From Methyloversatilis sp. RAC08 (lineage in GTDB: Bacteria; Pseudomonadota; Gammaproteobacteria; Burkholderiales; Rhodocyclaceae): DNA of 64,000 bases. Location: positions 3,596,001 through 3,660,000 of the forward strand of contig NZ_CP016448.1 in the NCBI RefSeq assembly GCF_001713355.1, in the 5' to 3' direction. Under the pieces are notes generated by a model that was not told where the DNA came from, made no database searches, and saw only the letters and a program-made list of their open reading frames with translations. Position 1 is the first letter of the stretch. Each line of letters begins with the position of its first letter. The translations under genes and the position numbers were made by a program. Shown here in pieces: positions 6,408 to 45,745 of this stretch.

Positions 6408-6415
6408 CGTCCATC

Positions 6416-6441
6416 GGGCGGGCGCAGGCGCCCTGTTTGTT
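6416..6441 (+). terminator. possible terminator of the fhc operon
   Basis: A GC-rich inverted repeat (GGGCG at 6416-6420, CGCCC at 6429-6433) follows the last fhc-operon gene by 8 bases. A short T-rich run, TGTTTGTT, comes next. The stem is short, so this is tentative. Confidence 0.35.
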
Positions 6442-6543
6442 CCCTGATCCCTCCGGGTTTTCAGCTTTTCTTGATCGCCCTCAAGCTTGCCTGCATCTGC
6501 TGAGCGCGCGAATGAAATCGTCGCGCAGCGCGTTTAGCATTGT

Positions 6544-6790
6544 GTTGAACCTGAAAACCTCAGTTGATCGGCTTCGTGGGCATGGTTGGCGGGGTGTACG
6601 GCAAGGCGCGAGGACGCGGCAGGATGGCACCCTGCAAGGACGAGCAACGCAGCCGGGCACCCCGCCGGCCGTGCACGCGAGGTCGAAGCGGTGTCGCCTG
6701 GACGGTAAGCGAGCAATAAGCGCCGATCTCCTTGATGCGCAGGGCTTTTAGCGCAATGGCAAGCGGTCAACTGAGGTTTTCAGGTTGAAC
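6544..6790. mobile_element. MITE-like element with perfect terminal inverted repeats
   Basis: CTGAAAACCTCAGTTGA at 6551-6567 is repeated exactly, inverted, at 6767-6783. The match extends outward to a 20-bp perfect arm (6548-6567 with 6767-6786) and imperfectly inward. GTTGAAC flanks both ends as a direct repeat (6544-6550 and 6784-6790), compatible with a target duplication, although the repeat is partly self-complementary. The roughly 200-bp interior has no credible gene. This is the layout of a non-autonomous miniature transposable element. No transposase is in the window and I saw no second copy. The right end abuts the Shine-Dalgarno of the P-type ATPase gene. Confidence 0.65.
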
Positions 6791-6806
6791 CCAAAGGAGC
6801 CTTGAA

Positions 6807-9539: not shown

Positions 9540-9543
9540 CCTC

Positions 9544-11184: not shown

Positions 11185-11296
11185 GGCTGCATGCATGCGG
11201 CGTCGCGGCGGGGCGAAGACGGTCGGTTCCGTCGGCGATCCCGTCTGCCGGATGCGGGATCGACAGTGAGGCAAGGATGCGGGAGATAAATGTTTC

Positions 11297-12979: not shown

Positions 12980-13859
12980 CATTCTCGCGGCAACTGATCT
13001 GTCGGCGCCGGCGCGGGAGGCGCTTGCGCGCGCCTTTCGGCTCGCTGCGGAAACGGGTGCGCAGCTGACGCTGATGCATGCGGTGAGCAGCGGGGCGATG
13101 GCGGCGTTGCATGAGCTGCTCGGCACCCGCGCGTCGACGGTCGAGCAGGGCATCGTCGAAGATGCCTGCAAAACGCTGCGTGACCTTGCCGAAGAGTTGG
13201 GGCACACGCACGGAGTATCCGCCGCAGTGCGGGTATTGACCGGTGCGGTCGTGCAGGAAATCGTTGATCAGACCGATCAGCTCGATGCCGATCTGCTGGT
13301 GGTGGGCGCGCGCGGCGAGGATTTCATGCGCCACCTGATGCTGGGCTCAACGGCAGAGCGCATGCTCGGAGTGATGACGAGGCCAGTGCTGGTGGTACGC
13401 CAGCCGCCTCATGCACCCTACCGGCGCGTGCTCGTGCCGGTTGATTTCTCGATGGCGTCGGAGCCGTCGCTGCAGGCTGTTCGCGCATTCGCTCCGCACG
13501 CTGAAATCATATTGCTGCACGCCTTCGAACTGCCGTTCGAAGGAAAGCTGCGCTATGCAGGCATCGACGATGCGGCAATACATGCGCTCCGGATTGCCGA
13601 GCGCAATTCGGCGTGCCATCAGATCGAAGCACTGCAGGCAAGTGCCGGCATCGCCGACCAGTCGCGCATCATCGTTCGCCACGGCGATGCATGTTCGCTG
13701 ATCCGCGAGGTACAGCAGCAGGAACACTGTGACCTGATCGCGCTTGGCAAGCAGGGGCGCAACCGCATTAAGGAAATGCTGCTCGGCAGTGTGACCCGAC
13801 ACCTGTTGTCGGAATCCGACTGCGACGTGCTGGTCGTCGGCGATTCGGGTGCCGGGTGA
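12963..13859 (+). CDS. universal stress protein, two Usp domains in tandem
   Basis: 298 residues made of two UspA folds. Each half ends with the ATP-binding pattern G-x2-G-x9-G-S: GARGEDFMRHLMLGST in the first and GKQGRNRIKEMLLGSV in the second. Both halves therefore keep nucleotide-binding features. The start at 12963 has a strong Shine-Dalgarno (AAGGAGG at 12950-12956) inside the end of the antiporter gene. Cytoplasmic; likely a regulator or sensor coupled to the antiporter. The role is inferred from linkage. Confidence 0.88.
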   Translation: MKPIRNILAATDLSAPAREALARAFRLAAETGAQLTLMHAVSSGAMAALHELLGTRASTVEQGIVEDACKTLRDLAEELGHTHGVSAAVRVLTGAVVQEIVDQTDQLDADLLVVGARGEDFMRHLMLGSTAERMLGVMTRPVLVVRQPPHAPYRRVLVPVDFSMASEPSLQAVRAFAPHAEIILLHAFELPFEGKLRYAGIDDAAIHALRIAERNSACHQIEALQASAGIADQSRIIVRHGDACSLIREVQQQEHCDLIALGKQGRNRIKEMLLGSVTRHLLSESDCDVLVVGDSGAG

Positions 13860-17451: not shown

Positions 17452-17865
17452 TCAGCCCTTGCCGAACAGTCGGGACACTCCTGGATCGACGCTGCGCGGC
17501 GCGAGACAGCGGTACAGCTTTCGGGAATCGACGACGCCGATCACCGTGATGCGCGCGGTGCGCAGCGTGGTCCAGTCAGCCACCACCGGGCGCCCGGCCC
17601 AGTCCTGCAGGTATTCGGCCTTCGCTTCCGGCAACCGGAGCCGGGGGCCCTTGAGCTTGAAAATCGCCAGATTGTGCAGCACCCAGTACAGCGTTATCGC
17701 CGGGCTGATGACCAGTGTGGCAACAATCATCCAGGCCAGTACGCCATAGTCGGGCAGGTCGCGGCCGACCAGCAGCCAGGCCCAGCCGAACAGGAACCAC
17801 CCTGCGCCAACGACGAAGACATGCACCAGCCGCTGACCCGCGCTGCGCAGGGGCTCACGGCGCAT
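17452..17865 (-). CDS. pgaD: PgaD-like synthase subunit
   Basis: 137 residues from the ATG at 17865, which shares one base with the stop of the upstream PEP-CTERM gene (TGATG). Two membrane helices (about 14-34 and 44-67) precede a basic cytoplasmic tail. This is the architecture of PgaD, the small partner that activates PgaC in response to cyclic-di-GMP in E. coli. The stop lies 9 bases before pgaC. An upstream in-frame start would lie within the PEP-CTERM gene and is disfavoured. Confidence 0.75.
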   Translation of the reverse strand: MRREPLRSAGQRLVHVFVVGAGWFLFGWAWLLVGRDLPDYGVLAWMIVATLVISPAITLYWVLHNLAIFKLKGPRLRLPEAKAEYLQDWAGRPVVADWTTLRTARITVIGVVDSRKLYRCLAPRSVDPGVSRLFGKG

Positions 17866-18677
17866 CAGGCACGTTGCCGGACGGCGACTGCGATCAGGCC
17901 CAGCCCGCCGAGCAGCATCCACCACGTGGCAGGTTCGGGTACCGGCATTGGTTGGGACAGGGTGAGCAGGTTTTCGGTCGGCACAAGCGTCCAGTCTGTA
18001 GCCCCTTCGCGCGACCAGCGCAGGTCGACGACGCCGGCTTCGAGCCGGTTGTAGGCGCCCAGCTGAAAACGATACAGACCGACATCAAGCAGGATGTCCT
18101 GCTCGAAGCCGAGCCGGTCACGCGGATTGACGCCGTCCTTGACCAGCGACAACATCGCGCCGCCGGCGCCGTAAAGGTTGAAGAAGAAGCCGTCGTCGTA
18201 CAGTACGCCGAAGTTATAGAGGCTCTTTTCGGTGATGCGGATGTAGCCATCGAAGCGCGACAGCCAGTTGGTCTGTGGCGCGCTCAGCGGCAATTCCAGC
18301 GTGGTGCCCCATTGCGCGGCGTACATCGCGTTGTAGAGCGTGTTGCCGAAATTCACCTGGCTCGCGATGCCGGTCCAGCGTTCGATGACGCCGGACTGGC
18401 CGACCGGCTGGTCGATCAGCGCATGCCAGTCGGCGATGCCCCAGATGCCGGTGCCCCAGGCAAAGTCGGAAATCGGTTGTCCACTGCCGTAGCTGAGCGT
18501 GGCTTCATCCCACAGTACTGTGCTGCCCTGCCAGTTTTCATCGATCTTGACGAACAGCGCATCCGCGCCACCACCGGTGCCGTAGCTTCCGGGGAGTGAA
18601 GGGGCCAGATCGACGGCAAGTGCGGCGAGGGGGGCCGCCATGACCGTCGCCAGCAAGGCCGAGAGCATCTTTTTCAT
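17865..18677 (-). CDS. PEP-CTERM sorted exoprotein with PA14-like region, first gene of pga-like operon
   Basis: 270 residues. Signal peptide MKKMLSALLATVMAAPLAAL. The C-terminus has the three-part PEP-CTERM signal: VPEPATW, a hydrophobic helix (WMLLGGLGLIAVAV) and RQRA. This tags it for exosortase-dependent sorting to the outer surface. The middle (about 135-235) reads like a PA14-type carbohydrate-binding fold: FDGYIRITEKSLYNFGVLYD followed by DGFFFNLYG, then YRFQLGAYNRLEAGVVDLRW. It is coupled to pgaD, so it may bind or organise the polymer made by PgaCD. The PEP-CTERM call is firm, the PA14-like call moderate, the role inferred. Confidence 0.85.
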   Translation of the reverse strand: MKKMLSALLATVMAAPLAALAVDLAPSLPGSYGTGGGADALFVKIDENWQGSTVLWDEATLSYGSGQPISDFAWGTGIWGIADWHALIDQPVGQSGVIERWTGIASQVNFGNTLYNAMYAAQWGTTLELPLSAPQTNWLSRFDGYIRITEKSLYNFGVLYDDGFFFNLYGAGGAMLSLVKDGVNPRDRLGFEQDILLDVGLYRFQLGAYNRLEAGVVDLRWSREGATDWTLVPTENLLTLSQPMPVPEPATWWMLLGGLGLIAVAVRQRA

Positions 18678-32238: not shown

Positions 32239-33027
32239 TCAGGTGGCCGGCTCGGCCATCAGCAGCGGGCGTGAGGTCTGCGGGTCTACCCAGACGCGGC
32301 ACTCCAGTCCGAAGGCGTCCGCCAGCGCGGTCGACTGCAGCACTTCGAACGGCGAGCCGTCGGCCCGGATGCGGCCGTCGGCCAGCAATACCAGACGGTC
32401 GGCGTAACGGGCGGCGAGATTGAGGTCATGCACGATGGCCAGCACGCCGGTCATGCGGCTGTGCGCGCGATCGCGCGCGCAGGCCAGCACGCGGTGCTGC
32501 CAGGCGATGTCCAGGGCGGCGACCGGTTCATCGAGCAGCAGGAAATGTTCGCCGGGCGTGCCGCGCCAGATCTGTGCCAGTGCACGCGCCAGATGCACGC
32601 GCGCCTGCTCGCCGCCGGACAGCGTGCTGCACAGCCGATCGGCCATGGTCTCGCAGCCGGTCAGCGTCATCGCGGCACGCGCGATGGCGCGATCGTCGGC
32701 GCCCGGCCGGCCGCCGTGATGCGGGAAACGGCCGAGCGCGACCACCTGCTGTACCGAGTAGTCGAGATCGCTGCGCTGGTGCTGGGCGTGCACCGCACGC
32801 AGCGTGGCCAGCTCGGCGGCGGGAATGTGGCGCAAAGGGCGCCCGTTGCACGACACGGCATCGCTTGCGGCGTCGATGTCGCCGGACAGCGCACGCAGCA
32901 GCGTGGTCTTGCCAGCGCCATTGGGGCCGATCAGGGCCAGCATTTCGCCGGGTCGCACATCGATCGACACGTCGTCGATCAGCCGGCGCTGACCGGCCAT
33001 GACGGTGAGGTGGCGGGCGCTCAGCAT
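32239..33027 (-). CDS. hmuV: heme ABC transporter ATP-binding protein
   Basis: 262 residues. Walker A GPNGAGKTT (about 34-42), Q-loop region (HAQHQRSDLDY), signature LSGGEQARV, Walker B HFLLLDEPVAALD, switch histidine IVHDLNL. The sequence and its position behind hmuS-hmuT-hmuU mark it as HmuV, which drives heme import into the cytoplasm. Its start is 1 base past the end of hmuU. Convergent with the feo genes. Confidence 0.92.
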   Translation of the reverse strand: MLSARHLTVMAGQRRLIDDVSIDVRPGEMLALIGPNGAGKTTLLRALSGDIDAASDAVSCNGRPLRHIPAAELATLRAVHAQHQRSDLDYSVQQVVALGRFPHHGGRPGADDRAIARAAMTLTGCETMADRLCSTLSGGEQARVHLARALAQIWRGTPGEHFLLLDEPVAALDIAWQHRVLACARDRAHSRMTGVLAIVHDLNLAARYADRLVLLADGRIRADGSPFEVLQSTALADAFGLECRVWVDPQTSRPLLMAEPAT

Positions 33028-33028
33028 G

Positions 33029-34078
33029 TCAGTGTTCCTGCGCGGCGCGCCGGCGCAGCAGCAGCATGAAGAAGGGAGCGCCGAACAGCGCGGTCAGCAC
33101 GCCGATCGGCAGTTCGGCCGGACTGACCCAGGTGCGTGCCGCACTGTCGGCCAGCACGACCAGCAGGGCGCCGGCCAGCGCACTGGCCGGCAGCAGCAGG
33201 TGATGCGATGGCCCGGCGAGGCGGCGCGCCAGATGGGGGGCAATCAGGCCGATGAAACCTATGGTGCCGGTCAGCGCCGTGGTGGCGCCGACCGATAGCG
33301 CGATCAGCACCACGCAGGCGCGGTTCAGCGTACCGACCGCCACGCCCAGGTGTGCCGCCTGCGCTTCGCCCAGCGCCAGTGCATCGAGCGGCCCGGCCTT
33401 GCGCAGCAGCAGCGCGAGGGCCACACCGACCGCAGCGGCGGCGGCGATGACACCCGGCCAGGTGGCGCCAGCCAGGCTGCCCAGCGTCCAGAACGTGAAC
33501 TGCCGGACCTGGGCGTCGCTGCCCATGAACAGCAGCAAGCCGATGCCCGACATCGCGAGCGCATTGATGGCGATGCCGGACAGCAGCATCAGCGTGACCG
33601 AACTTCGGCCATTGCGGCGCGACGCTGCATAGACCAGCGCCGTGGTCAGCGCGGCGCCGGCGAAGGCGGTCAGCGGCAGCAGCGCACTGGCGGCCCAGCC
33701 CCCCGTGCTCATGGCGCGCTCGCCAAGGATGACGACGGCGGCCGCGGCCAGTGCGGCGCCGCTGCTGACGCCGACCAGACCGGGGTCGGCGAGCGGGTTG
33801 CGCATCAGGCCCTGCATGGCGGCACCGGCGATGCCCATGCCGGCGCCGGCGATCACCCCGAGCAGCACGCGCGGCAGACGCAGCGTCCAGATCACCAGAT
33901 CGGCATCCGATCCGACCTGCTGCCCGAGCAGCGCGCTGACGACGGTGGCCGCCGGCAGGTCCACCGCACCGCTGGCCAGCGCATGGACGACGGCGCAGAT
34001 CAGCGCGGCTGCCAGCAGCCACAGCGTCATGCCGGCCGGCGGGCCGATGCGCGGCAATTCGACACTGCGCAGGTTCAT
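33029..34078 (-). CDS. hmuU: heme ABC transporter permease
   Basis: 349 residues, about nine or ten membrane helices, of the FecCD family. Conserved stretches include LRLPRVLLGVIAGAGMGIAG, QGLMRNPLADPGLVGVSSGA and GTIGFIGLIAPHLARRL. The ATG at 34078 overlaps the hmuT stop by four bases. It forms the membrane channel with HmuV. FecCD permeases also serve siderophores and B12; the heme assignment comes from hmuS and hmuT beside it. Confidence 0.92.
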   Translation of the reverse strand: MNLRSVELPRIGPPAGMTLWLLAAALICAVVHALASGAVDLPAATVVSALLGQQVGSDADLVIWTLRLPRVLLGVIAGAGMGIAGAAMQGLMRNPLADPGLVGVSSGAALAAAAVVILGERAMSTGGWAASALLPLTAFAGAALTTALVYAASRRNGRSSVTLMLLSGIAINALAMSGIGLLLFMGSDAQVRQFTFWTLGSLAGATWPGVIAAAAAVGVALALLLRKAGPLDALALGEAQAAHLGVAVGTLNRACVVLIALSVGATTALTGTIGFIGLIAPHLARRLAGPSHHLLLPASALAGALLVVLADSAARTWVSPAELPIGVLTALFGAPFFMLLLRRRAAQEH

Positions 34079-34914
34079 GGCGCGCGCATCCGCTGCGCCA
34101 GATCGAGGACGGCCGCCGGCAGGCGCGGACCGAAGCCAAGCAGACGCAGCGCGTCCAGCGTCACCAGCCGGCCGGCGCGCGCGGCGGGCAGGGCGGCCAG
34201 ACCGGGTCGGGCGAGGAAGGCGGCGCGGCCGCCGGCGGTGGCGATCGCCTCGTCGGTGGTGACGATGATGTCGGGTGCCGACGCCAGGGCGGCTTCCAGC
34301 GTCAGCGGGCGATAGCCGTTGAAGCGGCCCGCCATGACGTTGATGGCGCCTGCATAGTCGATCATGGCTGCAGCTGCGGTGTCGTCGCCGGCGACCATCG
34401 GGCTGGCACCGCCATGATCGAGAATGAACAGCGCACGCGGGCGCCCTGGCAAGGTCGCAACCTGTTGCCGCGCCGTCGCCCAGTCGGCGTCGAAGCGCTC
34501 GGCCAGCGCGCGCCCGGCGTCGTCCAGCGCGAGCGAGGCCGCAATGGCGCGGATGGCGCCACCGACCTGATCGGCACGATGGCCGGCGTCGAGCTGCAGC
34601 ACGCGCACGCCGGCGCCCTGCAACTGGGTCAGCGCAACCGGCGGGCCGGCGTCGGCGGTGGCGATCAGCAGCGTCGGCCGCATCGACAGCACGCCTTCGG
34701 CTGCCAGCGCACGCTGGTAGCCGACCCGCGGCAGCGCCTGCGCTGCCGCAGGCCATGTGCTCGTGGTGTCGGTCGCGACCACGCGGGCGCCGGCGCCGAG
34801 CGCATAGACGATTTCGGTGACCGCGCCGCCGACGGTGACCAGACGCTGTGCGCTGTCGGCCAGCGCCGGGCCGCACAGCGCGGCCAGAACGCTCAGCAGG
34901 GCAAGACGCTTCAT
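34075..34914 (-). CDS. hmuT: periplasmic heme-binding protein
   Basis: 279 residues with a signal peptide (MKRLALLSVLAALCGPALA). The mature protein is the two-lobed periplasmic-binding type (RLVTVGGAVTEIVYALGAG; VGYQRALAAEGVLSMRPTLL). In HmuT/ShuT a tyrosine binds heme; the Tyr in GYQRALAAEG is the natural candidate. It delivers heme to HmuUV. Overlaps hmuS by four bases and hmuU by four bases. Confidence 0.92.
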   Translation of the reverse strand: MKRLALLSVLAALCGPALADSAQRLVTVGGAVTEIVYALGAGARVVATDTTSTWPAAAQALPRVGYQRALAAEGVLSMRPTLLIATADAGPPVALTQLQGAGVRVLQLDAGHRADQVGGAIRAIAASLALDDAGRALAERFDADWATARQQVATLPGRPRALFILDHGGASPMVAGDDTAAAAMIDYAGAINVMAGRFNGYRPLTLEAALASAPDIIVTTDEAIATAGGRAAFLARPGLAALPAARAGRLVTLDALRLLGFGPRLPAAVLDLAQRMRAP

Positions 34915-35975
34915 GCGGCGACGGTGTCGGTTGACTGGCAGACCTGACGCACCAGCGCACGCCAGTCTTCGCGCTCCGGCTTGCCCGGTTTGCGCTCGCC
35001 GAAGAACAGCGCAATCGTTTCGCCGCTGGCGTCGAGCAATTCGACCGAGGTGACGATGCCATCGGAAGTCGGCTTGCGCACCAGCCAGGTTTCGGCCACC
35101 AGATCGTGCCGCAGATGCAGATTGAATCCGGGGTCGAGCACGTTCAGCCAGTTGCCCATGACTTCGATGCGATGCACCGGCCCGGTGTGGATCTGGATCA
35201 TGCCGGGGTTGCCGACGAAGCACATGATGGATACGGACTGCGCAGCCGCCTGTTCCAGCAGCGGGCGCGAAAGCGCGTTGTCCAGCCGTTCGGCATGGCC
35301 GTCCGGCGCCAGCTGCATGGCCTGTCGGCGCGACACCTTGTGACGGCGCAGCAGCGGGAAGAAGTCATGCGTGTCCTGCATGGCCAGCCAGTCGCGACGG
35401 AAGGCGTCGGCGTCGATCGCGGCCAGCGGCGTTTCCGCTTCCGGCTCCGTGCTGCGCAGTTCGACCGGTTCGCCCGGCTGCTGGTGCTCGGCGGTGTAGG
35501 CGGCCACCAGTGCGTGCCAGGCGTCGAGCTTGGTGCCGGCACGCGAGAACACCTTGTGCACGGCGTCGCCGTGGCGGTCGTAGAACTGGAAGCTGAGCGA
35601 CGTGCCGCGCGGCGTTTCGTCGGTCACGGCATAGCCATGCATCCATTGACCGTAGAAGATGCGCAGGTCGATCACGCTGCCCAGCGCAAGTCCCACATGC
35701 GCGTTGCCGGACATCGTTTCGAATTGGCCGGTCTTTTCATGCACCGCGGCTTCGTTGCGGGTCAGCACCATCACTTCGCCCAGTTCCGGCATGCGCTGGA
35801 ACAGGGCCTCGAACGGACCGCGCAGGCGTATGGCATCGCGGCCGACGCCGCAGGCGATGGCTTCTCCTTCGCTGATGCCCAGTGCGGCAGCGGCGTCGCG
35901 GTTGCGCAGGCGCCGTTCGGCTTTCAGCGCGTGGAAGGTGTGGTACAGGCTTTCGGGATCGGCAGTGCGGGTCAT
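34911..35975 (-). CDS. hmuS: hemin-degrading / heme-trafficking factor
   Basis: 354 residues composed of two similar halves, as in HemS/HmuS/ChuS. The first begins near MTRTADPESLYHTFHALKAE and the second near AAIDADAFRRDWLAMQDTHD. Histidines in NEAAVHEKTG and MIQIHTGPVHRIE are possible heme ligands. Cytoplasmic; it takes heme from HmuUV and releases iron. ATG at 35975 with GGAG nine bases upstream. First enzyme gene of the hmu operon, 32 bases after the PEP-CTERM gene. Confidence 0.92.
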   Translation of the reverse strand: MTRTADPESLYHTFHALKAERRLRNRDAAAALGISEGEAIACGVGRDAIRLRGPFEALFQRMPELGEVMVLTRNEAAVHEKTGQFETMSGNAHVGLALGSVIDLRIFYGQWMHGYAVTDETPRGTSLSFQFYDRHGDAVHKVFSRAGTKLDAWHALVAAYTAEHQQPGEPVELRSTEPEAETPLAAIDADAFRRDWLAMQDTHDFFPLLRRHKVSRRQAMQLAPDGHAERLDNALSRPLLEQAAAQSVSIMCFVGNPGMIQIHTGPVHRIEVMGNWLNVLDPGFNLHLRHDLVAETWLVRKPTSDGIVTSVELLDASGETIALFFGERKPGKPEREDWRALVRQVCQSTDTVAA

Positions 35976-36007: not shown

Positions 36008-36655
36008 TCAGGTGCGGCGGCGTGCGATGACGCCGAGCAGGCCGAGGCCGGCCAGCAGCGACAGCCAGGTGGCGGGTTCGGGTACCGGCGCGGCGAGCAC
36101 GGCCAGCTGGTCGAGGCTCAGGTGGGCGGCCGGGCTGGCGAAGGCGAACTGCAGCGCGAGCGGGTCGGTGACCGTCCAGCGCCACCAGGCTTCCTCTTCA
36201 CTGCCACCGAAGCCGCCCAGCGCGGCGGTGAATGACACGACCTTGCTGGCGGCGACGCCGTTGAGCGTTGCGATGTCATTGGCCGCCGTGCCCTGGGTGG
36301 CGATGCGCAGCCAGACGTCGTAGGTGCCTGCGGCAGGTGCGGCGAGATCGACGATGAAGTTCGCAGCGCCGCCACTGCTGTACAGGTTCCCGCTGCCGGT
36401 CAGGAAGGATCCAGCAGCCGGATTGGTCTGACTCAGCGAGCCGCTGCCGGCGATGTCCGGTGTGGCATCGAGGCTGGTGCTGTCGAACACATTCCATTCG
36501 GCATACACGGATGCGCTGGTCCACGGCGTGGCGGACGTGGCGCCGTTGCCGTCAAAACCGGCGAGCGGGGTGTCCCACACCGCACTGGCGGCGAAAACGG
36601 AAGAAGAAGACAGAACGCACAGCGCGCCGGTCGAGCACAGACGACGGAAAGACAT
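36008..36655 (-). CDS. PEP-CTERM protein inside the heme operon
   Basis: 215 residues. Signal peptide to about residue 23, a beta-rich mature domain (about 25-190: SASVYAEWNVFD, GTYDVWLRIATQ, WWRWTVTDP) and a complete C-terminal sorting signal VPEPATW, then LSLLAGLGLLGVIA, then RRRT. Beta strands of the GTYDVWLR kind are typical of carbohydrate-binding-like jelly rolls. It lies between the small leader gene and hmuS on the same strand, under one Fur box. A surface role in heme capture is plausible but unproven. The segment before the signal (LSLDQLAVLAAP) resembles that of the PEP-CTERM protein at 40338-41093. Confidence 0.82.
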   Translation of the reverse strand: MSFRRLCSTGALCVLSSSSVFAASAVWDTPLAGFDGNGATSATPWTSASVYAEWNVFDSTSLDATPDIAGSGSLSQTNPAAGSFLTGSGNLYSSGGAANFIVDLAAPAAGTYDVWLRIATQGTAANDIATLNGVAASKVVSFTAALGGFGGSEEEAWWRWTVTDPLALQFAFASPAAHLSLDQLAVLAAPVPEPATWLSLLAGLGLLGVIARRRT

Positions 36656-36776
36656 GATGGGCCTCGTTCAGAGCCATGCATCCCTTCCCCGCGAAGGCGA
36701 CTGCTCAGATGTTGTTTCTGATGATGTAAGTCCGCGGCCCCGCGCCGCCGGAAGGTGCTGCAAAAACGGTTCCGGT

Positions 36777-36980
36777 TCAGCCGGCGGCGAAATCGATCAC
36801 GTAGCGGTACTGCTTGCCGCAGTCGATGATCACTTCCTTCTGCCCTCGCTTGAGCAGACGCACTTCCACGCTGAGCGACCCGAAGCCGTCATGCCGTATC
36901 AGCTCGTCGAGCAGGCCGGCAAGGCGGGATTTCAGGGCGTCCGACGACGAAGCGTTCAGACCTGAAGTGGCGTCGTGCAT
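36777..36980 (-). CDS. small conserved protein at the head of the heme operon
   Basis: 67 residues: a helical front (DALKSRLAGLLDELIRHDGF) and a beta back (LSVEVRLLKRGQKEVIIDCG, then KQYRYVIDF). It is soluble, with no signal peptide and a single Cys. It is not the HemP type, which ends in RLTxNGKLILTK and is encoded at 45560. ATG at 36980 follows the Fur box by about 50 bases. It may be a heme-uptake regulator or chaperone like HmuP, but I do not recognise it securely. Confidence 0.68.
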   Translation of the reverse strand: MHDATSGLNASSSDALKSRLAGLLDELIRHDGFGSLSVEVRLLKRGQKEVIIDCGKQYRYVIDFAAG

Positions 36981-37030
36981 GGTGACCGGAGTGTCCGGCG
37001 CGGCAGGGCCGCGCTGTGTTGAACCGGTTC

Positions 37031-37050
37031 AAATAATAATGATTCTCAGT
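37031..37050 (-). promoter_or_regulatory. Fur-box-like site of the heme operon
   Basis: AATAATAATGATTCTCAGT at 37032-37050 (leftward strand: ACTGAGAATCATTATTATT) resembles consecutive Fur hexamers. It lies 51 bases upstream of the small leader gene and would serve the hmu operon down to hmuV. Confidence 0.65.
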
Positions 37051-37116
37051 TCGGTGTCAAGCAAAAACAGCTGGAGGAAGGCGGGCCCTCATTCCGCTGG
37101 GGCGCCGTGCTCAGGC

Positions 37117-37488
37117 TCAGCCTGCCTGCGGTCGCAACACGAAGCGGTCGGTCAGGGCGGGCGTGCCGTGCGGCGTGACGGAGGGGTTGAGCACATCGAG
37201 CAGATATGCGCCTTCGCCCAGCTGCGCGAAAGTGGATGCGTCGAGCCAGTATTCGCAGCCAGCGATCTCGCCCAGCTTGACGTCGGACTCGCCGAGCGCA
37301 ATCGAGCCGATGGGCCGGCACAGCGGCTGCACGCTTTCGGCCATTGCACCGTGGCGGAACATCAGCGGGCCATAGCGCGCGGACAGCCGGATGATGAGCA
37401 TGACGGCATCAACGCTGGCGGTCAGCGAGACAGCCGGACGGTGGCCGGTACGATGGAGCGAGCATTCGGGATCGGATGAATGTGGCAT
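37117..37488 (-). CDS. DUF779-like protein lacking the double cysteine
   Basis: 123 residues. The core, RLSARYGPLMFRHG, GESDVKLGEIAGCEYWLDAS and LDVLNPS, follows the DUF779 family, whose members often sit beside aldehyde dehydrogenases. In the family the segment after LMF reads FHQSGGCCDGS; here it is FRHGAMAES, so the hallmark CC is missing. One downstream Cys (PLCRP) remains. The start is uncertain: ATG at 37488 includes the conserved TASVDAVML region, ATG at 37401 would cut it. No aldehyde dehydrogenase is nearby. It could be divergent or decaying. Confidence 0.6.
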   Translation of the reverse strand: MPHSSDPECSLHRTGHRPAVSLTASVDAVMLIIRLSARYGPLMFRHGAMAESVQPLCRPIGSIALGESDVKLGEIAGCEYWLDASTFAQLGEGAYLLDVLNPSVTPHGTPALTDRFVLRPQAG

Positions 37489-37811
37489 GTGCGGATGTCG
37501 GGGCGCGACGTGTAGGTCTGTGCAATGGTTCGTGTGCGTCGCATCGGCAGGCCGGCGCACACCCCGGTTGAATCAGCAAATCCCGCGCCATATCAGGCGA
37601 TGCGCTGCAGGGTACGGGCGGCAAAGGAAAAGTACGCATTCCTCAGCGCGGTCATTGGCGTCCGGTGTCCAGTAACGGTGCACCGGACTGTCCATGGCTG
37701 GAACGGCGTCTTGCTGCGTGGCCATGCTGCGGCCGGAATCTGTCAGGCCGGTAACATGACCGGAATATGAAGAAAGCTTCCGGTTTGCGCCTCGGAACGA
37801 CATCGGCACTT
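37489..37811. other. intergenic region, nothing recognised
   Basis: 323 bases between the DUF779-like gene and the stop of the TonB receptor. The open frames crossing it are short and show no recognisable family. I see no repeat, hairpin or operator of note. Confidence 0.4.
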
Positions 37812-40256
37812 TCAGAAGCGCAGCGTCAGCGACAGCTTCGCGCTGCGGCCCGGCGCCTGTACGCCGACCGCGCCGGCAAAGCCGTCCTGCAGGCAGTACA
37901 CCTCGTCGGTCAGGTTGTCGATGTTCAGGCGCAGCAGGGCGTCCGGTGTCACGCGCCAGCTGGCGAACAGATCGAACACCCGCGCACCGAACTGGGTGCC
38001 GATGCGGCCGACGCCTTCGATGAACAGCGTGCCCGGGCGCGAGCACACCGTGGGTTCGGTGCCTGCGCTGGCGCGCCGTTCGCCGATGTCGCGCATGCGC
38101 ACACCGGCTTCGATGCGCCCGTCGAAGCCGCGCACGCCGGCACTGGCGCTCAGCGTGTCACCCGGTACGCCGTAGATCGCGTAATCGGTACCGGCGACCG
38201 GGTTCGTGATGCGGCCGTCGATCTGCGACCACGCCAGTGTGGCGAAACTGCGCAGCCCGTCATACGACAGCTCCAGTTCGGTGCCCTTGCGCCGTTCCCG
38301 ACCCGGCTGGGCGATGCTGCCGCCGACGTTGGAGATCGACTGCAGCAGGTGGCGGGTGTGGATGTCGTACCAGGTCGCGCGCGCCTGCCAGCGCCCGTCG
38401 GCGGCGCTCGCCGGCTGCGGCGACCAGGCGATGGTCAGTTCGTGGTTGGATGATTCCTGCGGCCGATACAGCCCGCCGCAGATTTCGTTGTCCGGTGCCA
38501 GATCGAGTGCCGGGTCATACGGCAGGCCGATGCCTGACGGGTCGTACAGCGGATTGGCGTCGCTGACCAGATTGCCCGGAGCAAGCGGATTGCCGGTGGT
38601 TTTCGCGCAGCGACTGGCGAAGCCGCCGCGTGCGAAATACTCGTCGACCAGCGGCGGCCGGAACGCTTCGTTGTAGCGCGCAGTGAGCGATACATCGCTG
38701 GCCGGAACGCGCCAGGTCAGCGCCAGCGCCGGCGACACCTTGACGAAGCGCAGGTCGGGCGACTGGCCGGCTGCAATCATGTTGCTGCGTGTCTGGCCTT
38801 CGGCGCTCACGTGGTAGCGGTCGATGCGCGCGCCCGGCGTCAATGTGAAAGCGCCGTAGGTCATTGCGTTTTCGACAATCAGCGCGTCGGACACCTTGTC
38901 GCCCGGAGGCTGCGCTTCGTTGAATCCGCCGGGATAGGTGCTCGCATTGGTACTGGCGTTCGACGTCACGCGCACGATGTCGCGGCTGTTGCGGATGCCC
39001 TGATAGCCCACCGTGAGCACACCGCGCAATTCGCCGAAGGTGTAGCGCAGGTCGTTGAACAGTTCGCCGGTCCAGATGGCATAGCGCCAGTCATCATTGC
39101 AGCGGTCGACCCGGAAGGCGGCCGGCAGCAGCGGTGACGGTGACACGCATATGCGGCTCTGGCCAATGCGGTGCAGATCGGCCAGTTCGGTCGTTTCGTA
39201 GGCCAGCGTGCCGCGCAGCGCGAGCCACGAATCCGGCGGCAGATAGCGCAGCGACAGATTGGTCGTGGTGTCATCGATGCTGCGCTGGACGATGCCGAAG
39301 CCGCCAGCACCGCTCGCCGTCGCGTCATACGGTGCGCGTTCGGGCCCGCCGGTGTAGCGCGTCTGACTCAGTTCGATCACCAGGTCGTCGGTGGCGTAGA
39401 AGCTTGCCTTGACGAAGCGGCTTTCCGACGCGGTGGCGGTCAGGTCGAGGCGATCGCCATCGGGCAGGCGGAAGTCATCGGAATCGCGCCGGGCGACCGA
39501 CACGATGAGGTCGAGGTGGGCATTCGGCCGGCCGTACAGGGTGACCATGCGCAGCCGCTCGCGGCTGTTCCAGTTGTAGCCGTATTTCACCTCGCTGCCG
39601 AAGGTCTGGCCCGGCTTCAGGAAGTCGGCCGCCGACTTGGTTGTGGCCGATACGGTGCCGCCGAGCGCACCGGACCCGGCGGTGACCGACGGCCCGCGCT
39701 CGACCTGCAGCGCCTTCAGCAGTTCCGGCTCGATGAACACACCGCTGCCGAAGCGGTACTTCTCGAAGCCCTTGACCGCGCCGTCGACCTTGAACAGCAC
39801 GTCCTCGTTGTCGGAGAAACCGCGCAGATTGAATTTCATGCCGCTGGCGCGCGGTCCGCCATCGACCGCCACGCCGGGGATGTCCTTCAGGATGTCGAAA
39901 ATGGTGCTGGCCTGGCGCCGCGCGATGGCAGCGGCATTGATGACGGTGACCGGGCGGTCCGGCGGCAATTCGATCTCGACCGGGCGCTGCAGATCGCGTT
40001 CGTCGGTGACCTCGACTTCGGGCAGAACGGTGGTGTCATCACCGATTGTTTCGTCGGCATTCATTGCATCGAGTCGCGCACCCGATGGCGAACTCGATGC
40101 TGCGTTCTGCGCCTGCGTGCCGCGCTCAGGCGTGTTCGTGCCTTGCGCACCGGCTGCCGATGCGATGAAACAGGCGAACGCACAAAGTCCGGCGGCAGGC
40201 CAGCAGGCGGAACGGCGGACAGGACGCCTTGCGACGGTGGAGGGCTGGGGTGTCAC
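37812..40256 (-). CDS. TonB-dependent heme/hemoglobin-type receptor
   Basis: 814 residues from a GTG start at 40256, the only start that keeps the signal peptide (CWPAAGLCAFACFIASAAGA). TonB-box-like PEVEVTDER near 79-87; plug domain (IFDILKDIPGVAVDGGPRAS, RGPSVTAGSGALGGTVS); barrel ending SAKLSLTLRF. The segment TARYNEAFRPPLVDEYF resembles the FRAP region of heme receptors, and the overall form fits the hemoglobin/transferrin/lactoferrin receptor class. Several cysteines (RICVSP, DRCNDD, SRCAKT, EICGG, TVCSRP, EVYCLQ) may form loop disulfides. It follows a PEP-CTERM gene by 81 bases. Heme as ligand is inferred. Confidence 0.82.
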   Translation of the reverse strand: MTPQPSTVARRPVRRSACWPAAGLCAFACFIASAAGAQGTNTPERGTQAQNAASSSPSGARLDAMNADETIGDDTTVLPEVEVTDERDLQRPVEIELPPDRPVTVINAAAIARRQASTIFDILKDIPGVAVDGGPRASGMKFNLRGFSDNEDVLFKVDGAVKGFEKYRFGSGVFIEPELLKALQVERGPSVTAGSGALGGTVSATTKSAADFLKPGQTFGSEVKYGYNWNSRERLRMVTLYGRPNAHLDLIVSVARRDSDDFRLPDGDRLDLTATASESRFVKASFYATDDLVIELSQTRYTGGPERAPYDATASGAGGFGIVQRSIDDTTTNLSLRYLPPDSWLALRGTLAYETTELADLHRIGQSRICVSPSPLLPAAFRVDRCNDDWRYAIWTGELFNDLRYTFGELRGVLTVGYQGIRNSRDIVRVTSNASTNASTYPGGFNEAQPPGDKVSDALIVENAMTYGAFTLTPGARIDRYHVSAEGQTRSNMIAAGQSPDLRFVKVSPALALTWRVPASDVSLTARYNEAFRPPLVDEYFARGGFASRCAKTTGNPLAPGNLVSDANPLYDPSGIGLPYDPALDLAPDNEICGGLYRPQESSNHELTIAWSPQPASAADGRWQARATWYDIHTRHLLQSISNVGGSIAQPGRERRKGTELELSYDGLRSFATLAWSQIDGRITNPVAGTDYAIYGVPGDTLSASAGVRGFDGRIEAGVRMRDIGERRASAGTEPTVCSRPGTLFIEGVGRIGTQFGARVFDLFASWRVTPDALLRLNIDNLTDEVYCLQDGFAGAVGVQAPGRSAKLSLTLRF

Positions 40257-40337
40257 GGGAAGTCTGCAACGGATGCAGCGCGCCGCGCGCGCTGCAGGGT
40301 GGACCGCCGGACCTTGTCGTCCGGCGGCGGGCGTTGA

Positions 40338-41093
40338 TCAGCCCTTGGTGATGCGACGACGCGCGCTCATCGTGATCAGACCCAGACCGCCCAGCATCAG
40401 GGCCCAGGTTTCCGGTTCCGGTACCGGCGCCGCGACCAGCTGGTCCAGCTGGAAGGCCTCGGTCTGCGAGTGGGTGTCGGTGCCGAAGGTGATGCGGAAA
40501 CTGTCGACCGGCACCGTGATGGCGAGCGCCGCGAGATTCCACGTGAAGGTGGCGTGGTTCGGGTTGTTCGGGTCCGACGCCACGACCTGACCGGTGAAGA
40601 AGTCGGTGTAGCTTAGGTTTTCGGTCTCGACCAGCGACGCGGTCAGGAACTGCGTGCCGTTGTTGTAGCTCAGGCGGGGCTCGTAACCGGTTTCGAACAG
40701 CCCGTCGACGCCATTGGCACCGCGGCTGATGTTGATGTAGCTCTGGAACACGATGCTGGTCAGGCCGTCGGCAGCGTCGGCAACCGCCATTTCGAAAGTC
40801 GAGCCGGCACCGCTGAACTGATACAGGCCGGCCGATGCCGGGTAGGCGCCGCCCGACATCTTGCGGAAGATCGTGTCGCCGGCGCTGCCGTCGACATTGG
40901 CAACTAGGCCCGCGGTCAGTTGTGCCGCCGTGATGCGGCCCGCCGTCAGGTTGTTGAAACCGTCGCTGGCGACCGAATCTGCCGGTGAGGTGAAGGATTC
41001 ATGCGCGGTGGCGGCGATTGCCTGACCGGCGAAGGCAAAGGACAGCAAGGCGGCGGTGGTGAGGGCTGCGCTGGGCAGGCGTGACGTGATCAT
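40338..41093 (-). CDS. PEP-CTERM protein upstream of the heme-type TonB receptor
   Basis: 251 residues from the ATG at 41093 (GAGAGG about 10 bases upstream), with a signal peptide ending near AGQAIA. The mature domain is rich in T, S, G and beta-forming residues, with two or three histidines (TAHESF, NHATF, DTHSQ). C-terminal sorting signal VPEPETW, LMLGGLGLITMS minus the first residue, then ARRRITKG. The pre-signal stretch FQLDQLVAAP matches SLDQLAVLAAP in the PEP-CTERM protein of the heme operon. Same strand as the receptor and 81 bases before it, so co-transcribed. Function unknown; a surface heme-protein capture role is inferred from context. Confidence 0.83.
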   Translation of the reverse strand: MITSRLPSAALTTAALLSFAFAGQAIAATAHESFTSPADSVASDGFNNLTAGRITAAQLTAGLVANVDGSAGDTIFRKMSGGAYPASAGLYQFSGAGSTFEMAVADAADGLTSIVFQSYINISRGANGVDGLFETGYEPRLSYNNGTQFLTASLVETENLSYTDFFTGQVVASDPNNPNHATFTWNLAALAITVPVDSFRITFGTDTHSQTEAFQLDQLVAAPVPEPETWALMLGGLGLITMSARRRITKG

Positions 41094-42006: not shown

Positions 42007-42252
42007 TCAGTGGGCGGCGCGCAGGCCCGCATTGCCGACGGCATGCAGGCTCCAGCGGCCAATCAGTGCGTCGCACACCTCACGCATCAGCGGATCGGCG
42101 CGTTCGTCCTCGGCGACCACTTCGAGATGGCGGATCACCATCTGCGCGACTTCCGGGCACGGGCGTTCCGCAAACCGGGTCATGACGAACAGCGTGGCCG
42201 CGGCCAGCATGTTCGGACTGGCGTCGCCAGTGGCACTGTGTTCGGTCGTCAT
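42007..42252 (-). CDS. small protein encoded before the S4 paralogue
   Basis: 81 residues, mostly helical: MLAAATLFVMTRFAERPCPE, then VAQMVIRHLEVVAEDERADP, then LMREVCDALIGRW. No signal or membrane segment. Two cysteines. It ends 16 bases before S4 and starts about 90 bases after the Fur-like palindrome, so it is probably the first gene of a metal-responsive pair. I do not recognise its family. Confidence 0.6.
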   Translation of the reverse strand: MTTEHSATGDASPNMLAAATLFVMTRFAERPCPEVAQMVIRHLEVVAEDERADPLMREVCDALIGRWSLHAVGNAGLRAAH

Positions 42253-42497: not shown

Positions 42498-42917
42498 TTA
42501 CTTCGCGCTGGAAGGATCAGTCACGAACCCGATGCGGGTCAGGCCAAGCCGTGCCGCTTCGCTCATGACGTGCGCCACCGAGCGGTAGGGCACGTTCTGG
42601 TCGGCCCGCAGCTGGATTTCGGCGCTCTTGTCGCGTGCGGCCGCTTCCTGCAGCTTCAGCTTCAGCGTTTCCTTGTCGATCTTCTCGCCCGACCAGAAAA
42701 GCTGCTCGTCGGCACCGATCGCGATCTGGATGTTCTCCGGGGGCAACTCGTTGGCGGAGGTCGATTCCTTCGGCAGGTCGACCTTCACCGCATGGGTCAA
42801 CAGCGGTGCGGTCACCATGAAGATGATCAGCAGCACCAGCATCACGTCGATCAGCGGAATCATGTTGATTTCCGCCATCGGTCCATCATCGTCCTGTTCG
42901 AAACTTGCGAAGGCCAT
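42498..42917 (-). CDS. exbD: TonB-system energy protein ExbD
   Basis: 139 residues: short cytoplasmic start, one membrane helix with the essential aspartate (INMIPLIDVMLVLLIIFMVT), and a periplasmic domain ending DPSSAK. With ExbB it turns the proton gradient into force on TonB. ATG at 42917, 14 bases after exbB. Confidence 0.93.
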   Translation of the reverse strand: MAFASFEQDDDGPMAEINMIPLIDVMLVLLIIFMVTAPLLTHAVKVDLPKESTSANELPPENIQIAIGADEQLFWSGEKIDKETLKLKLQEAAARDKSAEIQLRADQNVPYRSVAHVMSEAARLGLTRIGFVTDPSSAK

Positions 42918-42931
42918 TGATGTGCTCCCGC

Positions 42932-43702
42932 TCAGTGCGCCGGACGCGCGGCGTCGCGGCCGTGCTCGACCAGTGACAGTACGCGGTCGCCGGTGGCTTT
43001 CGGATCGTTCGTGCCGACGTCCTTGATGCCGGTCGACAGCATGACGAACACGTCGTGCGCGAAGCTGTTCAGTTCGGCCATGACGTTGCGCGTCGAGCGG
43101 GCGAAGAAGTTGAATGCCAGCGCTGCCGGGATGGCGGTGGCCAGGCCGATGGCGGTCATGATCAGCGCCTCGCCGACCGGGCCGGCCACCTTGTCCAGCG
43201 TGCCCTGACCGGACATGCCGATCGCCAGCAGCGCGTGGTAGATGCCCCACACGGTGCCGAGCAGGCCGATGAACGGTGCGCTGGACGCAACCGATGCGAG
43301 GAAGGTCTGGCCGTACTCCATGCGGCTGCGGTCACGTTCGATCGAACGCTTCAATGCACGGGTCAGGAATTCGTCGGCGCTGCCCGTAGCGATCAAACCA
43401 CGCGCGCCGGCCTTGCCGTTGCGCAGCGTTTCGACCGCGCTGAAGCCTTCATGCACCAGATGCGAGAACGGGTCGGTGACGCCGTTGGAGCGCATGTCGC
43501 GCGCAACGTCTTCCAGCGACGAGGCGTTCCAGAAGCGATCCATGAACTGGCTGCTGGCACTGCGCTGGCGCAGCGCAACGATGCCCTTGAGCACGATCAG
43601 GAACCAGGTGCCGATGGACGCGAGCGCCATCAGCACGACGATGGTGATTGCGACAGCATCCGCATTCGACAGGAAGTGCGCAAAACCCAGTGATTCATTC
43701 AT
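42932..43702 (-). CDS. exbB: TonB-system proton channel ExbB
   Basis: 256 residues, MotA/TolQ/ExbB family, with membrane segments near 16-40, 135-160 and 180-205. SSAPFIGLLGTVWGIYHAL and GEALIMTAIGLATAIPAALA are the conserved helices. Start ATG at 43702 (a TTG one codon earlier is not needed). Between tonB and exbD. Confidence 0.93.
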   Translation of the reverse strand: MNESLGFAHFLSNADAVAITIVVLMALASIGTWFLIVLKGIVALRQRSASSQFMDRFWNASSLEDVARDMRSNGVTDPFSHLVHEGFSAVETLRNGKAGARGLIATGSADEFLTRALKRSIERDRSRMEYGQTFLASVASSAPFIGLLGTVWGIYHALLAIGMSGQGTLDKVAGPVGEALIMTAIGLATAIPAALAFNFFARSTRNVMAELNSFAHDVFVMLSTGIKDVGTNDPKATGDRVLSLVEHGRDAARPAH

Positions 43703-43789
43703 CAAGACTCTCCATGTGAAGCCAGATCAAAGCCATAGTGCAAAAAAAGGATCGCCGCGCAGTGTACGCCAGCGGTTGCGTCGGTCAAA

Positions 43790-44602
43790 TCATCGCGGCA
43801 GGCTGAAGCTGAGCGGGACCATGACCGACTCGGCGACCGCTTCGTTACCGCGCCGCGCCGGCACGAACTTCCATTTGCGCACGGCATCCAGCGCAGCCTC
43901 GTCGAGTCGGGGGAAGCCGCTCGACTTTTCGATATCGACCTTCGACGGCATGCCGTTTGCCTCGACCATCACCCGCAGCATCACCCGGCCTTCTTCGCCG
44001 GCACGGCGCGACAGCATCGGGTAGGCCGGTTTCGGGTTCGACAGGTAGGCGGCGTCGAAGCGGGGTGGTTCCAGTGGCGGCGGGGCGGCGACCGGTGCTG
44101 CCGTTACCGCGGCAGGTGCCGGAGCGGTTGCCGGTACGACATCGATTGCAACCGGTTCCGGCGGCGCAGGCTCCTGTACCGGTGCGCTCTCCGCGCTGGG
44201 CGCATCGGCAGCCGCAGTCAGCTTCGGCAACACGACTTCCTTGCGTCGGGGCACCGGTTTGGTGACCGGCTTCGGCGGCTCGGGCTCAACCTTCGGCTGC
44301 TCGCGCACCGGTTCGATGTCAGCCATCGGCAGCGGCTCGGGCGCAATCAGCGTCGCCAGCATGACAGTGGCGGGTGCGCTCGGCAGTGGCAGTTGGGCAT
44401 GCATCAGCCAGAAAAGTGCGAGGCCATGCAGCAGCAGCACGGTGCCGAGCGAAAAGATGCGCGCCGGCGCGCCGGCATCGGGCAGGCCGGTCCATCGACC
44501 CGATGAGGTTGCCGGGGCGGCCTGAATGCGGAAGACGGGTGGCAGCTGTGGTGGCAGGGTTCCGGCGCCGCCTGCCAGCGCTGCGCTGCTCATGACGCCC
44601 AT
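43790..44602 (-). CDS. tonB: energy transducer TonB
   Basis: 270 residues. One membrane helix (about 49-68, FSLGTVLLLHGLALFWLMHA), a proline-rich periplasmic linker (EPEPPKPVTKPVPRRKE and a Pro/Ala run), and the C-terminal TonB domain: PAYPMLSRRAGEEGRVMLRV, EKSSGFPRLDEAALDAVRKW. An N-terminal cytoplasmic stretch of about 45 residues is longer than in E. coli; a start at 44593 is also possible. It couples ExbBD to the receptors at 27.4 and 37.8 kb. Confidence 0.92.
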   Translation of the reverse strand: MGVMSSAALAGGAGTLPPQLPPVFRIQAAPATSSGRWTGLPDAGAPARIFSLGTVLLLHGLALFWLMHAQLPLPSAPATVMLATLIAPEPLPMADIEPVREQPKVEPEPPKPVTKPVPRRKEVVLPKLTAAADAPSAESAPVQEPAPPEPVAIDVVPATAPAPAAVTAAPVAAPPPLEPPRFDAAYLSNPKPAYPMLSRRAGEEGRVMLRVMVEANGMPSKVDIEKSSGFPRLDEAALDAVRKWKFVPARRGNEAVAESVMVPLSFSLPR

Positions 44603-45559: not shown

Positions 45560-45745
45560 CTATTTGGTGAGTATCAACTTGCCATTGCGCGTGAGGCGCA
45601 ATGAGTAAAGTTCGCCACCGTGATTGATGGCGACCTGTTTGCGGCCACCCAGCAACTGCGCCGAATCAAGCGTCGGCGACGGAGTGGGTGACGCGGCGGG
45701 AGCGTTGGCGGGTGTCTGCGGCAGCGGCAGTGCAGGCGTATTCAT
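45560..45745 (-). CDS. hemP: HemP family heme-uptake protein
   Basis: 61 residues: a Pro/Ala-rich start and the HemP signature SAQLLGGRKQVAINHGGELY plus RLTRNGKLILTK at the end. In other betaproteobacteria HemP/HmuP activates heme-receptor expression with Fur. It is first in hemP-bfd-bfr-tonB-exbB-exbD, 14 bases after a Fur-box-like sequence. Confidence 0.92.
   Translation of the reverse strand: MNTPALPLPQTPANAPAASPTPSPTLDSAQLLGGRKQVAINHGGELYSLRLTRNGKLILTK

Follow-up and report, generated by a model that had tools for sequence, protein, structure and literature searches.

A conserved PEP-CTERM protein family paired with heme-type TonB-dependent receptors, and a candidate role in extracellular heme capture, at the hmu locus of Methyloversatilis sp. 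RAC08

We have analyzed a 64,000-nt stretch of the Methyloversatilis sp. RAC08 chromosome (NZ_CP016448.1, positions 3,596,001-3,660,000), referred to here as the window, and all window coordinates are counted from its first letter. The host is a methanol-using water bacterium, and its genome consists of one contig of 3.94 Mb. An iron island on the minus strand of the window begins with hemP, bfd, bfr, tonB, exbB, exbD, an 81-aa ORF, an S4-type protein and a PEP-CTERM protein (PC2), and continues with a heme-type TonB receptor, a DUF779 protein, a Fur-box-like site, a 67-aa protein (lead67), another PEP-CTERM protein (PC1), hmuS, hmuT, hmuU and hmuV. Beyond hmuV lie feoAB, which are on the plus strand, as well as another TonB receptor. 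We named bfd, bfr, tonB, exbBD, S4 and feoAB by eye, and these names are what we take the genes to be. The features used below are as follows.

32239 to 33027, minus strand: hmuV, ATPase (NF010068, 294 bits against a cut-off of 261)
33029 to 34078, minus strand: hmuU, permease (PF01032, 2.3e-86)
34075 to 34914, minus strand: hmuT, periplasmic binding protein (PF01497, 5.3e-33)
34911 to 35975, minus strand: hmuS, HemS/ChuX heme-handling protein (PF05171, HemS, 7.8e-82)
36008 to 36655, minus strand: PC1, PEP-CTERM protein of 215 aa (PF07589, 31.5 bits; model pLDDT 88.5; 57-sequence family), made up of a signal peptide, a mature beta jelly-roll at about residues 23-189 and a PEP-CTERM signal at 190-214
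36380 to 36382, minus strand: codon of PC1 Tyr92 (Y70 of the mature fragment), a candidate ligand suggested by the family alignment
36777 to 36980, minus strand: lead67, conserved 67-aa protein, encoded by the gene that follows the Fur-box-like site first (the scan gave 204 relatives)
37029 to 37053, no strand assigned: Fur-box-like site ahead of lead67 (two matches of 13/19 that overlap)
37812 to 40256, minus strand: heme-type TonB-dependent receptor, placed in the larger receptor clade of PC1 loci (profiles, solved relatives, tree)
40338 to 41093, minus strand: PC2, PEP-CTERM protein of 251 aa, directly before the receptor (PF07589, 29.5 bits)
42498 to 44602, minus strand: presumed exbD, exbB and tonB (named by eye; similarity relatives in other PC1 loci), separated from PC2 by the 81-aa ORF and the S4-type protein
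45560 to 45745, minus strand: hemP, 61-aa ORF (PF10636, 1.7e-18)

The first-pass annotation of this DNA had placed one PEP-CTERM protein within the hmu operon, between a small leader gene and hmuS, and another immediately before a heme-type TonB receptor, and it was right about both: the PC1 gene sits between lead67 and hmuS, with hmuT, hmuU and hmuV downstream, and 81 bp separate the end of PC2 from the start of the receptor gene. PC1 itself is separated from the receptor by about 1.2 kb. The signal peptides and sorting signals claimed for both proteins are likewise present, the former as Sec-type N-termini recognized by eye and the latter as PF07589 matches (31.5 bits for PC1, 29.5 for PC2) above the cut-off of 20.7, and the host genome contains two matches to the exosortase family PF09721. 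The similar stretch ahead of the two sorting signals also holds up, in that the pattern [LIVF]DQ[LIVMF] was found in none of 31 other PEP-CTERM tails of the host genome (40 of 78 tails were fetched, of which nine were unreadable). Nevertheless, PC1 and PC2 showed no significant similarity by BLASTP, and hhalign gave a probability of 1.2% (E 0.045). A third PEP-CTERM protein of the window (17865-18677) lies outside the iron island. The 81-aa ORF (42007-42252) matched no family above cut-off and has relatives between hemP and hmuS in two other loci (L026, L027).

The window receptor matched the heme/hemoglobin receptor model TIGR01785 at 3.1e-73 (247 bits, below the cut-off of 317), and its closest solved chains are heme receptors, including ShuA, PhuR and HasR. 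No Pfam or NCBIfam family above cut-off was found for lead67, and no signal peptide was seen in it by eye. Its identification as HemP was considered and rejected, as it has no PF10636 match whereas the 61-aa ORF at 45560-45745 does. The four nearest relatives of lead67 in a scan of a species-genome collection are from Methyloversatilis (96-100% identity). Many of its relatives outside heme loci (L082-L118, e.g. L099, L103 and L118) directly precede prepilin-like (GFTLLE) genes, and such prepilin-adjacent copies occur in Methylophaga, Colwellia, Methylomonas and others.

The same lead67-driven scan served to follow PC1 across genomes. It returned 204 lead67 relatives, the best 80 of which were kept as loci, a sample biased to lead67 and to Methyloversatilis, Methylophilaceae, Aquabacterium and Methylococcaceae. 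PC1 (E<1e-8) was present in 50 of these best 80 loci, and in all 50 a heme-type receptor lies at most 1.3 kb from PC1 (at most 1 kb in 43). Receptors were recognized by BLAST to the window receptor in 46 loci and by receptor profile only in the other four, which are from Methylomonas. A PC1 match in L111 (2e-8) was dropped at the 1e-8 line. The 30 PC1-negative loci have lead67 directly before hmuS in three Aquabacterium, and no hmuS was seen in the others. An 11-row PC1 profile was then run against 399 genomes of the same order, and 12 genomes, host included, had a match at E<=0.001; in 11 of them a copy neighbors a gene related to the window receptor, and most of these stretches also contain lead67 and hmuSTUV. 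In the single miss (G340), the match is a fragment of 50 residues that contains a stop, and no receptor was seen. Five weak single-sequence matches (E 0.002-0.01; G093, G104, G153, G195 and G240) were dropped, and those genomes are not among the 12. When a 57-row profile was run against 369 genomes of the class, four additional genomes besides the host were found, each with an adjacent receptor, so that overall the PC1-driven searches found a heme-type receptor beside PC1 in 15 of 16 genomes. At the level of single copies, one PC1 of G468 (L156) had no receptor in its 5-kb stretch, and two PC1-family copies of G116 (L031, L036) are located away from heme genes. These sequence comparisons show PC1 to be a conserved family paired with heme-type receptors in Burkholderiales, Methylococcaceae and a Nitrospira MAG. 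The expectation that PEP-CTERM genes and heme genes would be linked in relatives was accordingly borne out for PC1, and for PC2 only in loci of the window's own layout (7/8).

In the 50 PC1 loci of the lead67 scan, hmuS was found within the stretch in 38. The remaining 12, several of which are short stretches, comprise eight Methylophilus, two Methylovorus, one Nitrospira and one Methylomicrobium, and they would fit a reading in which PC1 captures a non-heme substrate, such as an iron-siderophore, and the hmu genes are merely neighbors. We consider this quite improbable, given that the window receptor has heme receptors as its closest solved relatives and that G116 carries hmuSTUV on another contig.

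HemS was detected above cut-off in 19 of 120 sampled genomes of the order, and all six PC1 genomes in that sample are HemS-positive (hypergeometric 7e-6, assuming that the 120 HemS-scanned genomes belong to the PC1-searched set). Exosortase was present in all 15 PC1 genomes tested, compared to 5 of 13 HemS-positive, PC1-negative controls. PC1 occurs in six of the 11 sampled order genomes with both HemS and exosortase; the other five lack it, and PC1 is therefore accessory rather than required for heme uptake. Stretches of 16-20 kb around hmuS in 13 PC1-negative genomes contained neither lead67 nor PC1, nor any credible PEP-CTERM protein; regular-expression matches to PEP-CTERM in two of these control stretches (L166, L172) were judged false from their tails.

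Since the host genome has 78 PEP-CTERM matches in 3.94 Mb, with clusters elsewhere, adjacency by itself is weak evidence, and two common genes could have landed in an iron island by chance or hitch-hiking. Within the host genome, a PEP-CTERM gene is directly upstream (same strand, <1.2 kb) of three of 14 Plug-domain TonB receptors versus 0.16 expected (P ~3e-4), under a random placement that ignores operon structure. The location of PC2 homologues away from heme genes would suit a chance origin, whereas the PC1 linkage is kept in Burkholderiales, Methylococcaceae and the Nitrospira MAG, and as judged from the genomes compared its conservation is far beyond chance. Chance is contradicted for PC1 and possible for PC2; as an account of the locus, it is highly improbable.

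Regulation by iron was addressed through the sites upstream of lead67. Four Fur-box-like sites scoring at least 13 occur in the whole window, and two of them are those at 37029-37053. Sites of at least 13/19 within 300 bp upstream of lead67 were found in 36 of 50 PC1 loci, versus 13 of 30 PC1-negative leader loci. The site outscored every one of 30 shuffles in 30 of those 36 loci, and the gap between its end and the lead67 match is 20-96 bp in 34. No Fur-box-like site was seen before lead67 in the methanotroph loci, in which the receptor precedes lead67. Because such sites also stand ahead of lead67 in loci that lack PC1, iron control is likely rather than shown, and the pattern is suggestive of Fur control of a lead67-PC1-hmuSTUV operon.

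To compare receptors with and without PC1, 14 control stretches were used (the 13 controls and the hmu stretch of G116), 12 of which contained receptor-like ORFs. The tree comprised 52 rows: 19 of 43 first-kind PC1-locus receptors, the window receptor, 13 other PC1-locus receptors, 12 controls and seven others. It is a quick tree built with no bootstrap, in which long branches are flagged for non-heme receptors. PC1-linked receptors fell into two supported groups of 23 rows (SH-aLRT 100) and 10 rows (SH-aLRT 99), neither of which contains a control; the 10-row group is nested in a larger group with ten of the controls. One member of the order (G005) carries a methanotroph-type PC1 together with a methanotroph-type receptor, which fits PC1 and receptor travelling together. 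That receptor clades track PC1 presence is also what would be expected if PC1 were a lid or other structural partner for the receptor in the manner of SusD, shaping access of substrate without binding heme itself. PC1 copies can exceed receptors, as in one Methylobacillus locus with four PC1 copies and two heme-type receptors (L068; L029 7403-12811), and this is easier to reconcile with a soluble or matrix pool than with a 1:1 lid, to which we assign a low probability.

The mature domain of the window PC1 had no Pfam or NCBIfam match, and members of its family had only weak and differing matches, in at most three of 57. Searching the PDB by sequence with the PC1 profile gave no matches. On these searches, the PC1 mature domain is a family with no name in Pfam or NCBIfam and with a specific genomic partner. 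In these two respects PC1 is unlike general PEP-CTERM/exosortase cargo, with which it shares the complete sorting signal and an exosortase in the genome. The sorting signal itself varies: among the 60 PC1 proteins of the scan, pattern matching assigned 49 PEP-CTERM-like and 10 VPxPA-like C-termini, the latter in Methylococcaceae and Nitrospira, and neither type to one. The signal-less member is a 592-aa Methylotuvimicrobium protein (L088/G645, L088 10415-12193) with the PC1 domain at its start; its gene nevertheless keeps a heme-type receptor, lead67 and hmuSTUV as neighbors. As the signals differ while domain and context are kept, mature domain and context outlive a change of sorting signal.

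Protein hemophores such as HasA of the HasA/HasR system are secreted proteins encoded beside a heme TonB receptor. The solved chains most closely related to the window receptor include HasR, with ShuA and PhuR, but PC1 differs from HasA in lacking its domain, in its predicted fold and in its export route. Pfam matches to the HasA, NEAT and HmuY domains were absent from PC1, PC2 and all 57 PC1-family mature domains, and for the whole PC1 and PC2 proteins PEP-CTERM was the sole Pfam match. The AlphaFold model of PC1 is all-beta and confident (pLDDT 88.5, pTM 0.87), whereas that of PC2, built from eight close sequences, is unusable (pLDDT 47.6). Top Foldseek rows for the PC1 model were mostly jelly rolls of the CBM35/CBM6 type (best E 3.5e-3, TM ~0.3-0.4), and known hemophore, NEAT or HmuY folds were not among the best 50 of 1045 rows. 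Of the hemophore-like role first suggested for these proteins, a role of PC1 at the heme receptor is well supported by the conserved pairing, and the likeness to HasA and NEAT found no counterpart in the domain matches or the jelly-roll model.

Tyrosine is a known heme ligand in hemophores. W32 and W138 (numbering of the mature fragment) are invariant in the 57 family members, and W5 and Y70 are conserved in 56 of 57, Y70 being replaced by His in the remaining member. Conserved His, Cys or Met residues are lacking: His is most frequent in column 156, with 29 of 57, and Cys and Met stay below half in every column. Given the role of Tyr in hemophores, Y70, which is Tyr92 of the full protein, is a candidate ligand and the only strong one that the alignment offers.

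The two invariant Trp, the lack of conserved His, Cys and Met, the CBM35/CBM6-type Foldseek rows and the ties of PEP-CTERM proteins to exopolysaccharide, for which later papers cite Haft 2006, all agree with another reading, in which PC1 is a glycan-binding (CBM-like) matrix protein that does not bind heme and instead anchors or concentrates hemoproteins or the receptor in exopolysaccharide. The genomic linkage observed is to heme receptors, however, and jelly rolls bind tetrapyrrole-type ligands as well, the B12-binding DUF4465 domain being described as an augmented beta-jellyroll in the part of PMC13398666 consulted. We regard the glycan-binding reading as rather unlikely.

We propose instead that PC1 is an exosortase-sorted surface protein that acts as the extracellular substrate-capture partner of the heme-type TonB-dependent receptor, with a probability of roughly two in three. 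The basis is the signal peptide seen by eye, the PEP-CTERM signal, the two exosortases, the Fur-box-like site, the nearby receptor and the conserved pairing. Also in its favor are the co-occurrence of PC1 with HemS and exosortase, the PC1-free control stretches, the two receptor clades devoid of controls, the retention of domain and context under a changed sorting signal, the B12, copper and zinc loci of the host genome described below, and the zinc-uptake exoprotein ZepA. Under iron limitation, Fur would release the lead67-PC1-hmuSTUV operon. PC1 would be exported through Sec and, after processing by exosortase, be retained at the cell surface or in exopolysaccharide, where its jelly-roll domain may collect heme or a hemoprotein and hand heme to the receptor. 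The receptor would be energized by the products of exbD-exbB-tonB, so that TonB-ExbBD would drive heme into the periplasm, HmuTUV would carry it inward and HmuS would handle it in the cytoplasm. A role of PC1 at the heme receptor is well supported, and we infer direct binding of heme. The capture role is weakened by the lack of conserved His, Cys and Met, by the CBM-like fold and by the absence of PC1 from five genomes with HemS and exosortase. Further points against it are the Methylotuvimicrobium member that has no sorting signal, the G116 and G468 copies with no heme genes or receptor nearby, the 12 loci in which hmuS was not found, and the Fur-box-like sites of PC1-negative loci.

In its slot ahead of the receptor, PC2 probably fulfils a second role that is specific to this group. 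Among eight loci of the Methyloversatilis layout, PC2 precedes the receptor in seven (six Methyloversatilis and one Gammaproteobacteria MAG), and in the eighth, from M. thermotolerans, a PC1-family protein (9e-27) is encoded at this place. The first PC1 copy of the Methylobacillus locus L068 likewise precedes the receptor. The presence of PC1-family proteins in the PC2 slot elsewhere hints that a PC1 was replaced by PC2 or gave rise to it. Sequence comparison falls short of proof (hhalign probability 1.2%), though the two have in common the LDQL stretch before the signal. Four stronger PC2 homologues, two each in G025 and G072, are located away from heme genes. A weak match in G126 (0.001), excluded from these four, lies in a stretch (L038) with no heme gene.

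Other TonB receptors of the host genome also have PEP-CTERM neighbors. A B12 locus (L175 = G000:C1:3790001-3806000, 7057-11178) comprises a cobalamin riboswitch (110 bits), a PEP-CTERM protein, a DUF4465-PEP-CTERM protein (L175:8247-9047; PF14717, 3.6e-49) and a BtuB-like receptor (TonB-B12 1.8e-41, below cut-off). DUF4465 was found in three of 274 genomes of the class sample, all three with an exosortase-like tail by eye. Both other DUF4465 genomes retain the preceding partner gene; one has a cobalamin riboswitch and receptor in its stretch, and the second, at a contig end, showed neither. In the portions of PMC13398666 consulted, DUF4465 proteins from several phyla are reported to bind B12, a tetrapyrrole-type ligand, and the binders BtuJ1, BtuJ2 and D5EK51 resemble PC1 in having a beta jelly-roll, a signal peptide and genes often beside TonB receptors. 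The main text of that source contains no occurrence of PEP-CTERM or exosortase. Profile similarity to PC1 is lacking, as DUF4465 had no match in PC1 or PC2, and hhalign gave 0.3% for PC1 and nothing for PC2.

At a copper locus (L174 = G000:C1:968001-986000, 6122-11069), a TonB-copper receptor (1.6e-107, below cut-off) follows two PEP-CTERM genes; a DUF1775 protein and a second TonB receptor are nearby. In a zinc locus (L177 = G000:C1:570001-588000, 6000-13337), a ZnuD-like receptor (1.7e-96, below cut-off) is accompanied by a Fur-family regulator and a CobW protein. Three PEP-CTERM genes are also present, none of which stands immediately upstream of the receptor on its strand. This gene context matches that of ZepA in Anabaena, a PEP-CTERM exoprotein mediating zinc uptake, according to the portions of PMC10957091 consulted. 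ZepA is like PC1 in its signal peptide, PEP-CTERM and control by a Fur-family regulator, which is probable for PC1, and hand-over of its cargo to an outer-membrane receptor is proposed by its authors in the same portions. ZepA serves zinc and is Zur-regulated, in contrast to PC1, which lies in heme genes and has no conserved His; the two are likened here by description rather than by sequence comparison.

Taken together, these loci may indicate, as a tentative reading that we hold at somewhat below even odds, that the PEP-CTERM/VPxPA route is a general display platform for capture partners of TonB receptors in exosortase-bearing biofilm bacteria, in which each nutrient has a protein of its own: PC1 for heme, a ZepA-type protein for zinc, another for copper and a DUF4465 protein for vitamin B12. 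If true, such a platform would be the counterpart of Bacteroidetes surface lipoproteins that do the same. A literature search, with most subscription journals and all preprints outside its scope, returned no title or abstract start naming a pairing of PEP-CTERM/exosortase with heme uptake or TonB receptors, and the consulted portions of PMC11072679, PMC5023235 and PMC2907700 contain nothing on this locus. PMC5023235 does describe mutants of Methyloversatilis universalis FAM5.

Some genomes carry dozens of PEP-CTERM proteins, whose functions are, to our knowledge, largely unknown. A conserved and probably Fur-controlled pairing with heme receptors gives one PEP-CTERM family a concrete, testable job, and, taken with the zinc, copper and B12 pairings in the host genome, it suggests that exosortase cargo can capture nutrients and need not consist of matrix proteins alone. 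For methylotrophs, PC1 is a lead on how heme may be collected in biofilms.
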